From contig NZ_JABKCA010000003.1 in the NCBI RefSeq assembly GCF_013166655.1, positions 1 through 64,000 of the forward strand: a DNA stretch of 64,000 bases. Direction: 5' to 3'. This document shows, piece after piece, positions 6,000 to 9,410 of the stretch. The DNA comes from Lentimicrobium sp. L6. Its GTDB lineage: Bacteria > Bacteroidota > Bacteroidia > Bacteroidales > UBA12170. How positions within the stretch are numbered: the first letter of the stretch is position 1; every line of letters starts with the position of its first letter. The notes below the pieces were generated by a model that did not search any database, had not been told where the DNA came from, and saw only the letters and a program-made list of their open reading frames with translations. The position numbers and the translations under genes are program-made.

Positions 6000-7559
6000 T
6001 TATAGCTTTTGAAATTTAATATGTTGGTTCTTACCTTCAGAAATGGTCTCAAGAATATATGAGCCAACTGGTAGATTTGAAATGTCAAGAGTGTTAGTGT
6101 AGGTTATATTGTTCATAATATAAACGCTCTGCCCAGTGGCATTCAGAATTCTAATACGCTCTGGTAAACTTTTAAAGTTAACATTCAAAATATCATTGGC
6201 TGGGTTTGGATAAGCAATAAAGTCTAATCCTTTTATGTTTTTATTACCAGTAATATCGCTAACATCCATTATAGCTTTTATATACATTTTCCCTCCATTT
6301 GATTCCACATCAAAAGTTGTTTCATAAGTACCTGGAGTATTATAGTTTGAAGCGTCAAAGGTAAATTCATGTTGATTTGAACCATATCCCGTAGTGGTTC
6401 CTCCGTTATCGTTTGTGCTCAACCAAGATGCAGTATTACTAGTATTAACAATATAAGAAAGGTTTCCGCCTCCTTTGTTGTTGATGTTAAACGGAATAGT
6501 TTGAGTATCACCCATCTGTATGTCTACCCAAAATACGCTGGTGTCTGCGCTTATCATGGCAGAGTTTGTATAATCTAACTTCATAACTCCATGATTGTAG
6601 GTCCCCATCCAGGCTTCATTTTCACGAAAAAAGAAAGCTTGAATATAATTATTAATAAGGCCAGTAGTCTCATCAAAGTGAACAAATAAATTTTTATCAT
6701 CTTCATAAATGCCCACACCTTTATAATTATAGAATCCTTGTTCACCGGCAAACCAAATAGACTGATAATCTGCTTGGAAGTTATACATCATAAAACGAAT
6801 CCAGTCAAAAGGGATTAAAGAGTTACTAGTTTTAAACTCTGCTAATTGATTAATTTCATTATCATAATAATATAGTCCTTGAACAGGGGAGTAACCACCT
6901 GACCAAAGGTTATCTTTTTCATCATAGTCAAAATCAAAAGTAGTGATAGCCTCATGTGTAGTAAAAGATATTCCATCAAATTCAAGAAAACCCACATCAT
7001 CCGAAGCAAGTATCTTTTTCCCTTCACTATTTATGTCAATTTTCCAACAATCGTTATTTAACTCAGGATAATTGATGTAATCAAACACGGTAAAAGTCAT
7101 TGTTGAAGGAACTAAAGAGTATAACCAAGATTCTACTGTGTTTCCACCCAGAATCCAAAGTACACCTTCTTCATCCATTACCATATCCATAAACATAAAT
7201 CCAGCACTTAATTCAGGAGTTCCTTCTCCAAAGTAGGCCCAGTTTGTACCATCAAACTTCCATAGTCCTGCCTCACCGCAGGCCCAAATGTTTCCATCAA
7301 GATCCTCAATAATCTTATGAATCCAAATCCAGTCCCAAGGGGCATTCATCACACTCCAGGGGTAATTAGTCCAGGTGGTTCCGTCGAATCTTGAGATTCC
7401 TTTTCCTTCACCAATCCATATATCTCCATTGATTTCGGTAATACTTGAAACTCTATCTACAGAAATACCTGCATTATCTGTATTATAAGTTGTTACAGTT
7501 TGTGAAAATATTCCTATAGTAATAATTGCAAAAAGGATAATTAGTAATTGTTTTCTCAT
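6000..7559 (-). CDS. Secreted two-component-regulator-propeller repeat protein with T9SS type A sorting domain
   Basis: A 519-aa exported protein of unknown specific function. It has a signal peptide (MRKQLLIILFAIITIGIFSQ). Several Reg_prop-like beta-propeller repeats follow, of the form DIWIGEGKGISRFDGTTW and NIWACGEAGLWKFDGTNW, over about residues 25-320. A BACON-like or Ig-like segment comes next, with TQTIPFNINNKGGG. The protein ends in a T9SS type A sorting domain (FIAYPNPANDILNV...LPVGSYILE...IKFQKL). Such propellers are best known as the sensor half of hybrid two-component systems, but here they are on a secreted or surface-attached protein with no histidine kinase part. The ATG at 7559 was chosen over 7568 because the signal peptide begins there. 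Phased repeats lie upstream (7646-7697). Confidence 0.85.
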   Translation of the reverse strand: MRKQLLIILFAIITIGIFSQTVTTYNTDNAGISVDRVSSITEINGDIWIGEGKGISRFDGTTWTNYPWSVMNAPWDWIWIHKIIEDLDGNIWACGEAGLWKFDGTNWAYFGEGTPELSAGFMFMDMVMDEEGVLWILGGNTVESWLYSLVPSTMTFTVFDYINYPELNNDCWKIDINSEGKKILASDDVGFLEFDGISFTTHEAITTFDFDYDEKDNLWSGGYSPVQGLYYYDNEINQLAEFKTSNSLIPFDWIRFMMYNFQADYQSIWFAGEQGFYNYKGVGIYEDDKNLFVHFDETTGLINNYIQAFFFRENEAWMGTYNHGVMKLDYTNSAMISADTSVFWVDIQMGDTQTIPFNINNKGGGNLSYIVNTSNTASWLSTNDNGGTTTGYGSNQHEFTFDASNYNTPGTYETTFDVESNGGKMYIKAIMDVSDITGNKNIKGLDFIAYPNPANDILNVNFKSLPERIRILNATGQSVYIMNNITYTNTLDISNLPVGSYILETISEGKNQHIKFQKL

Positions 7560-7645
7560 AATAAACATGTTAATTAATCATTTGTTTGTGTCATTATTTT
7601 ATCAGTGCAAACATTAGAAATTTCTTATTGAAAAGTGATTCCCAC

Positions 7646-7697
7646 CACCTATACTAATACTATACTTGGCGTTTTGTCACCTATACAAAAACCATAC
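7646..7697. promoter_or_regulatory. Tandem CTATAC hexamers with 11-bp phasing
   Basis: CTATAC occurs at 7649-7654 and 7660-7665. CTATAC and CCATAC occur at 7681-7686 and 7692-7697. Each pair has an 11-bp period, and the two pairs are 32 bp apart. The 20-base units 7646-7665 and 7678-7697 match at 17 of 20 positions. They sit in the 357-bp gap 7560-7916, about 87-138 bases before the start of the minus-strand propeller gene. Direct hexamer repeats one helical turn apart are the usual form of OmpR/PhoB-type response-regulator sites; that assignment is inference. Apart from these repeats and the trkH terminator I see nothing else in the gap. Confidence 0.45.
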
Positions 7698-7888
7698 AGT
7701 AAGATGTAATATATTGATATGCATAAGGATGAGATTTGTGAAAAACTTTACTAGGAAACGAGTATTTGTGGATTCTATTAGACTTAGTTTATTGCAAAAC
7801 GGAAGGTATTCTGTAGAGAGTTCTATGATGGGATGGTTATAGATACTTCTATTCATGGAGAAAGATTGATTATATTCCTACTATTATT

Positions 7889-7918
7889 AAAAAAGATCTT
7901 CTTATTATTTGGAAGATC
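7889..7918 (-). terminator. Terminator overlapping the trkH stop codon
   Basis: On the minus strand GATCTTC (7918-7912) pairs with GAAGATC (7901-7895) across a 10-nt loop and is followed by six T residues (7894-7889). The first arm includes two bases of the trkH stop codon. Confidence 0.75.
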
Positions 7919-9410
7919 ATTTTTTCCAGAAAGTAGGAGAGAAGATAATTAATACTGTGAATAATTCCAATCTTCCAAGCAGCATCAAGAAACTTAGTAC
8001 CCATTTTCCAAAATCGGGGATATGTGCATAATTGTCAACAGGACCTAGTGAGCCTAAGGCAGGACCAATATTACCTAGTGCGGATGCTGATGCTCCAACT
8101 GCCGATATAAAATCAAGCCCAATAGCAGTCATGAAAACAACTCCTACTACAAAAGTAGTGATATAGAAAAGGAAAAAAGAGGAGACTAAGAATACAATAT
8201 TTTGAGAAACAGGTCGATGATTGAGTCTTACAGGTAAAATGGCATGTGGGTGAAGTAATCTTCTGAATTCTAACAAACTATTTTTAATAAGAATGAGAAT
8301 CCTTACTACTTTCACTCCTCCACCTGTGCTTCCTGCACTTCCTCCTACAAAAAAGAGAATAAAGAGAAGGAACCATAAACCTGATGGCCATAATAGGTAA
8401 TCGGCTGTTACAAAACCGGTTGTTGTTATTATGGAGACTACTTGGAATAGACTATCCCTGAAGGCTTGTTCCCAACCCATATTCATTTTTAATATCAATC
8501 CTCCAGTAATAATCAAGGTAACTACAATAATAATTCCAATATATAATTGATATTCCTCATTAGCTTTTACTTTGGAGAACTTTCGTTTCAACATGAAATA
8601 ATGTAGAGAGAAATTGGTTCCAGCCAATATCATAAAGAGGATGATGATATATTGGATATATGGCGAAAAGCCTGCTACACTGTCGTTCTGGGTTGAGAAT
8701 CCTCCAGTGGCCATAGTGGCAAAAGCATGACAAACCGCATCGAAGAAACTCATATGTCCAATCATTAGAAGGATAATTTCTGCTACAGTTAATATGACAT
8801 AAAGTCCCCAGAGTCTTTTGGCCATTTCTTTTACCTTGGGATGTATTTTATCCGCGGTTGGACCTGGTGATTCGGCTGTAAATAATTGCATCCCACCAAT
8901 CCCTAGTAATGGTAAGATAGCTAAGGACAATACAATAATCCCCATCCCACCAATCCAATGTGTCATACTCCTCCAAAAAAGTAAGCCATGCGGAATAGAC
9001 TCTATATCATTTAATATGGATGCTCCTGTTGTGGTGAATCCTGACATGGTTTCGAAAAAAGAATCGGTGAAGGATTCAAAATAGCCGCTTAAATAAAAAG
9101 GAAGACTACCAAATAATGAGATGGCCATCCAACTAAAGCTAACTATCAAGTATGCTTCTTTTTTTGAGATGTGCTTAGTAGCTTTTCGTGTGTAAACAAC
9201 AGAGAATAAGCCAATAAAAATAGTAAACAATCCTGCTATTAATATAGGGAAGAATTCTGATGTTCCTTTCATGATATGGAAATCATAAAGTCCTTCAGGG
9301 TGGTAAAACCAAGAAAATGGCAATGCTGAAAAAATGGTTAAGCCTTCCAATATTAGTAAGAATCCAATTACTCGGAAAACCATTTTAAAATTTATAGATT
9401 GCCTTCGCAT
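7917..9410 (-). CDS. trkH: TrkH family potassium uptake protein
   Basis: A 497-aa polytopic inner-membrane subunit of the Trk/Ktr potassium uptake system. It has the four pseudo-repeated pore loops of the superfamily: GFTTTGAS, ATGGFSTQND, TTTGFVTADY and ALGNIGPALG. A glycine-rich GGSAGSTGGG stretch precedes the third transmembrane unit's end. The upstream gene trkA ends two bases before the ATG of trkH, so the two are co-transcribed and encode the regulatory and channel subunits of one transporter. Length is normal for TrkH. Confidence 0.95.
   Translation of the reverse strand: MRRQSINFKMVFRVIGFLLILEGLTIFSALPFSWFYHPEGLYDFHIMKGTSEFFPILIAGLFTIFIGLFSVVYTRKATKHISKKEAYLIVSFSWMAISLFGSLPFYLSGYFESFTDSFFETMSGFTTTGASILNDIESIPHGLLFWRSMTHWIGGMGIIVLSLAILPLLGIGGMQLFTAESPGPTADKIHPKVKEMAKRLWGLYVILTVAEIILLMIGHMSFFDAVCHAFATMATGGFSTQNDSVAGFSPYIQYIIILFMILAGTNFSLHYFMLKRKFSKVKANEEYQLYIGIIIVVTLIITGGLILKMNMGWEQAFRDSLFQVVSIITTTGFVTADYLLWPSGLWFLLFILFFVGGSAGSTGGGVKVVRILILIKNSLLEFRRLLHPHAILPVRLNHRPVSQNIVFLVSSFFLFYITTFVVGVVFMTAIGLDFISAVGASASALGNIGPALGSLGPVDNYAHIPDFGKWVLSFLMLLGRLELFTVLIIFSPTFWKK

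Follow-up and report, generated by a model that had tools for sequence, protein, structure and literature searches.

The repeated element at positions 7646-7697 of the window (the whole stretch of 64,000 nucleotides analysed here) is predicted to serve as operator for a one-component activator that is anchored in the membrane and built of TPR, transmembrane and NarL/LuxR-type HTH parts, with a probability of roughly 0.84. It looks like one case of a recurring Bacteroidota activator site that is situated between a gene for a membrane-anchored regulator and a gene for a surface protein, and the regulator probably switches on the adjoining surface-protein gene. TGTA-like half-sites at 0, 11, 32/33 and 43/44 bp recur between such regulators and secreted genes that are mostly T9SS-sorted, and the recurring arrays keep a constant spacing to the sigma-ABfr-like promoter that follows them. 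No published account of such operators was found in the open-licence literature, a body of work outside which lie bioRxiv and most subscription papers.

The window element consists of two copies, CACCTATACTAATACTATAC at 7646-7665 and CACCTATACAAAAACCATAC at 7678-7697, which are identical at 17 of 20 positions. The copies are 32 bp apart from start to start and the hexamers inside each are 11 bp apart, so the phased direct repeat of the preliminary description is true geometry in both its periods. With up to three mismatches, a degenerate pattern derived from both copies matches the window at these two places only; shuffled sequences gave a mean of 0.07 matches, and two matches were found in 0 of 100 shuffles. 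On the minus strand the element reads as four TGTA-like half-sites at 0, 11, 32 and 43 bp, oriented toward a T9SS gene, the minus-strand ORF 6000-7568, which it precedes by 78-129 bp. The features of the region are as follows.

7678-7699, minus strand: operator copy, promoter-distal, with half-sites TGTA (7695-7698) and TGTA (7684-7687) 11 bp apart; based on the direct repeat and the held-out matrix
7644-7667, minus strand: operator copy, promoter-proximal, with half-sites AGTA (7663-7666) and AGTA (7652-7655), 32 bp past the first copy
7608-7616, minus strand: candidate -7 box TAATGTTTG, with a spacer one base longer than TAnnTTTG; based on the alignment and on the consensus in the accessible part of PMC7366714
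6000-7568, minus strand: candidate target gene, 522 aa, with a signal-like start and the T9SS C-terminal sorting domain PF18962
7569-7916, no strand assigned: intergenic region between ORF 7917-9410 (minus strand) and the target gene

ORF 6000-7568 is probably the target of the window element. Its PF18962 tail scores 42.6 bits against a cut-off of 27 (7.5e-11), which confirms that the neighbouring gene encodes a T9SS protein, as had been proposed; a BACON_2 match is under the cut-off. Judged from the sequence, translation may start at the fourth codon, 7559. The gene on the other side, ORF 7917-9410 on the minus strand, is putatively TrkH-like. The intergenic region 7569-7916 displays no match to three regulator proteins (E<=1) and none to the profile of a small ORF described below (E<=5).

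The pattern CTATAC-N5-CTATAC is not enriched in the 5.14-Mb genome, where 18 matches with up to one mismatch compare with 48 for the reversed pattern. The bare CTATAC pair thus falls short of the frequency criterion set for it in the preliminary description; the larger four-half-site array is the one that is enriched and tied to a gene class. A genome search with the degenerate 20-mer gave one more strong copy, on contig C84, and a 29-column model of four copies gave a weak additional copy on C14 (E 3.1). Each has a second copy at 32 bp, and that of C14 lay outside the search by which C14 was found. Both arrays are preceded by a gene whose product combines a TPR part, a membrane segment and an HTH at the C-terminus, and the gene that follows each array has a signal-like start. 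Among 46 operators, that of C84 is nearest to the window element, with 0.77 of the variable positions alike. The C84 regulator is present as two overlapping ORFs (L079:6981-8701), which represent a real frameshift or an assembly error.

In G003, a genome of the same genus, a homologue of the window gene with 35% identity is found directly behind a TPR-transmembrane-HTH regulator. The sequence between regulator and gene is different there, and it too is repeated at 32 bp, with 17 of 20 bases identical. Two other arrangements were seen. Three tandem units of regulator, gap and cargo gene occupy about 13 kb at L130/L238 (G003:C82), and a longer regulator of 982 aa that shares the HTH (L233:8327-11353 and L120) carries a 16/20 repeat at 32 bp and precedes a SusC-type TonB receptor, not a T9SS protein.

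A search for the regulator family gave 17 members in G000 and 22 in G003, with 15 further matches across seven other relatives. Held-out loci are the best 80 of 592 relatives from a GTDB genome scan. By title these are Bacteroidota except for one Chlorobiota (L204); several come from one MAG, and the set may contain members of the window's genus. L202, which has the same repeat as a G003 locus, was dropped. Loci without a usable downstream gene (26 of 80) were dropped for tests based on gaps and restored for the 350-bp test; G0_C2, with fewer than 100 bases downstream, was left out, and five G003 orthologues were removed in the collapsed sets.

Behind 30 same-genus regulators the best repeat offset of the gap is 32 in eight cases and 33 in four. 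At the 54 usable loci from the best 80 of 592, L202 included, 32 and 33 are the top two of 79 offsets. In repeat-offset spectra with windows of 8-12 bases, the same-genus set peaks most strongly at 32 and 11, and the held-out set (L202 out) does so at 11, 32 and 33. Offsets 21/22 are weaker, and in the held-out set they are mixed with 18 and 27. The spectra are close to what half-sites at 0, 11, 32/33 and 43/44 bp predict.

Arrays were also counted within 350 bp after every regulator, whatever follows, as a repeat of at least 14/20 at 32/33 bp. Such repeats occur at 16 of 38 same-genus loci with orthologues in (13 of 33 without the five orthologues) and at 15 of 79 held-out loci from the best 80 of 592. 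Across 36 other pairs of offsets the means are 2.7 (2.1 without orthologues) in the same genus and 3.5 in the held-out set, with maxima of 7 (6) and 7. The remaining 22 of 38 and 64 of 79 loci fall below 14/20 at this spacing, and over half thus have no clear array. Control intergenic regions from other loci (70 regions, which are shorter, with a mean of 236 vs 347 bases) gave 3 repeats at 32/33 vs 2.1 elsewhere. A first control, made up of 131 intergenic regions of the window, L079, L080 and the regulator loci, had given 16 at 32/33 against a mean elsewhere of 5.4; one of these 16 is the window element and the other 15 are in loci fetched for their regulators. This set was discarded because it was drawn from regulator loci and is hence no clean control.

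A single 24-base matrix, used twice at a spacing of 32 or 33 bp and fitted by expectation-maximisation, gave the consensus TGTAG...TTTTGTA..GGT, and 46 of 112 loci exceed the control maximum, an in-sample count. When trained on the held-out loci, the matrix has a log-likelihood of 370 for 32/33 vs 146-212 at seven other spacings. Applied to 33 same-genus loci, the held-out matrix puts 15 above the control 95% point at 32/33 and 10 above the control maximum. The 95% point is also exceeded by 14 of these loci at 43/44, 12 at 54/55, 10 at 22/23, 10 at 27/28 and 6 at 37/38; because 6-14 loci pass at other spacings, the matrix alone hardly picks out 32/33 on the same-genus set, where its mean scores are 5.3 at 32/33 vs 2.1-4.0 at five other spacings. 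Over both strands of the 64-kb window, the window element ranks first with a score of 18.7, and the next is 11.6. On 128-kb Markov sequences the mean maximum is 10.2 and the highest of 40 trials is 14.9.

R2, a model of 26 operators that has the window site among its training rows, matches this training row at 7646-7699 with an E of 7e-4. A site outside the training rows was detected in G000 at C54:163-216 (E 0.026). A small ORF and then a secreted gene come after it, and the contig start is too near for any regulator gene. Over 58 further genomes, and with stricter filters, R2 gave 14 matches at E<=0.1, with about six expected by chance. Thirteen of the 14 are not at a regulator, 11 of those are within open frames of at least 131 codons, and the 13 are probably due to chance. 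In G015, which belongs to another family of the same order, locus L286 displays in turn a regulator end, 137 bases, an array with 33-bp spacing and a secreted gene with a signal-like start. By eye, a TTTG is present at offset 30 of L286; at E<=1 nothing in this locus matches the small-ORF profile.

Downstream proteins collected from the 39 regulators number 23, and PF18962 is found in 18 of the 20 that were scanned (8/10 in G000 and 10/10 in G003); the two without it are a SusC-type receptor and a porin. An Omp28 match is present in 10 of the 20 scanned proteins (at L227, L228, L230, L237-L240 and L243), in eight of them above the cut-off.

The 46 operators were aligned by the element alone, and the columns downstream were then read. 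The alignment displays TTTG from offset 2, an A at 27 and TTTGC at 30-34. In 19 of the 46 a TTTG starts at exactly offset 30, compared with an average of 0.48 per offset; starts within 28-33 are found in 25 of 46, vs 0-4 in control windows. A sigma-ABfr promoter has a TTTG near -33 in addition to its -7 box. The sigma-ABfr -7 consensus, cited in the accessible part of PMC7366714 as TAnnTTTG, occurs in exact form 15 times around 49 elements; six of these cluster, all at offset 26. The promoter of the 46-locus alignment is clearly sigma-ABfr-like and in fixed register with the operator, and this register argues for an activator that would act beside the -33 region. The window promoter departs slightly from the pattern: its TTTG is 31 bases past the element, where the modal offset elsewhere is 30, so that the -7 box is one base off, and it has no clear -33 TTTG.

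The regulators themselves are predicted to be anchored in the membrane. By a hydropathy rule, 95 of 107 complete regulators have a signal-like N-terminus and 103 have a membrane helix before the HTH, and for these reasons the TPR part is taken to be periplasmic. The last ~60 residues are predicted to fold like a NarL/LuxR (GerE) HTH. An AF2 model of the C-terminal 150 residues of the L147 regulator, from a 31-row alignment, has a pLDDT of 79.8. Foldseek relates it to EvgA, RcsB, VraR, DosR and TraR with probabilities of 0.97-1.00 and a TMt of 0.74-0.76 on isolated domains; the E-values are weak, with 0.1 the best and none <=0.001, and the matches listed also include STAT3, designed bundles and further helical proteins, most of which have lower probabilities. 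In three partial regulators the Pfam GerE match is below the gathering score (14.8-15.4 bits vs 23.5). NarL/FixJ/LuxR domains have the same predicted fold; here, a TPR part and a membrane anchor replace the receiver or autoinducer domain.

The preliminary description had read the hexamer pairs as an OmpR/PhoB-type response regulator site and had suggested that the gene may be under two-component control. Head-to-tail half-sites at 11 bp are the OmpR/PhoB geometry, and this part of the proposal, tandem half-sites at about 11 bp, is borne out. The part that concerns a winged-helix response regulator with a receiver is not. It is unsupported because the array elsewhere adjoins TPR-transmembrane regulators with a predicted NarL/LuxR-like HTH. 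In addition, Pfam detects neither a receiver nor a winged helix at E<=0.1 in the three partial regulators scanned, which speaks against two-component control, and the 32/33-bp pairing recurs. An OmpR/PhoB-type site is therefore very unlikely.

It is just as improbable that the array belongs to these promoters but is read by a co-located LytTR, AraC-type HTCS or ECF sigma factor. Weak Sigma70_r4_2 matches of the HTH in the three partial regulators are consistent with such a reader, and a Mantel test does not tell recognition apart from ancestry. In that test the similarity of the HTHs correlates with that of the operators at a rho of 0.13 (p 0.012), and at -0.07 for pairs below 60% HTH identity; the linker gives 0.25. 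Because the HTH tracks the operator weakly, and less than the linker does, shared ancestry is a possible alternative to recognition. On the other side, the arrays follow the TPR-transmembrane-HTH family in many genomes and the 70 other intergenic regions show no excess. In HTCS a single chain combines kinase, receiver and AraC-type HTH domains, none of which Pfam detects in the three partial regulators. The HTCS of Bacteroides resemble the window system in having a membrane-anchored regulator, a direct-repeat operator and targets that often adjoin; they differ in being AraC-like, in their polysaccharide genes and in known operators that average 21 bp, against 32/33 bp here (PMC3878776, accessible part).

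SusR-like systems also have a membrane-anchored regulator and tandem sites proposed to be on one face of the DNA, but with 67 or 77 bp between site centres and with a role in sugar utilisation, as described in the same part of PMC3878776. Behind the present regulators, offsets 67 and 77 do not rise above 7/38 or 7/79, and one of the three regulators matches the NCBIfam SusR model, with 17.5 bits against a cut-off of 480. A named relative matched by all three is the BT3442 family (NCBIfam NF053779), to which both the TPR and the HTH parts align, though far under the cut-off (43.5, 31.5 and 40.0 bits vs 940). The one paper found to name BT3442 gives no operator in its accessible part (PMC2954219). 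In PorX/PorY, regulation is likewise tied to T9SS; reportedly, PorX does not bind the promoters of T9SS genes (PMC5005315, accessible part).

A decaying mobile or repetitive element, or a chance duplication, in place of a regulator site would fit the C3 and C84 copies, which are alike at 25 of 29 bases, with transitions as the sole differences, but it is extremely unlikely, as other genomes repeat the geometry and not the sequence, the window 20-mer with up to one mismatch is found in 0 of 59 relatives and the array is in fixed register with the promoter.

An operator for a membrane-anchored activator thus remains the preferred reading, and it suggests the following mechanism. The periplasmic TPR part would receive a signal. 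The two half-site pairs are about three helical turns apart, and two HTH dimers, or a tetramer, could occupy both copies on one face of the DNA. The bound HTHs, beside the -33 region, would recruit polymerase. The window gene has no neighbouring regulator gene, so its control is probably in trans, and the C84 regulator is the first candidate because its adjacent operator is the most similar one found in the genome.

A charged ORF of about 45-65 aa is often found between the operator and the cargo gene. It displays a motif like ELxxFIEKKKxQNxVLKKLLxxI, with examples at L073:1652-1834, L257:251-433 and, in L079, between 6565 and 6795 (minus strand). Among 291 held-out small ORFs, a profile built from 12 same-genus members detects 31 at E<0.1 (0.2 in shuffles) and 20 at E<0.01 (0.05 in shuffles). 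Of the 31, 24 end within 40 bases of the cargo start or slightly overlap it. G000 and G003 together have 14 matches, and several of these are rows on which the profile was trained. Eleven are behind listed regulators, one is behind the C54 operator and two are elsewhere. It can be hypothesized, tentatively and with more doubt than confidence, that Bacteroidota have a three-part module consisting of a membrane-anchored, periplasmic-TPR NarL-type regulator, a promoter-locked operator of four half-sites and a conserved small protein encoded before the T9SS cargo.

The present result bears on the activation of individual T9SS cargo genes. It supplies a class of regulators, an operator whose geometry is exact, the register of the promoter and an initial set of target genes, all of them amenable to direct experiment in cultured Bacteroidota. 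A small protein family emerges as well, and four scanned members of it match no Pfam or NCBIfam family above the cut-off. If the three-part module is true, every surface protein would be served by a sensor of its own, and the small protein might report on, or gate, the expression or export of the cargo.
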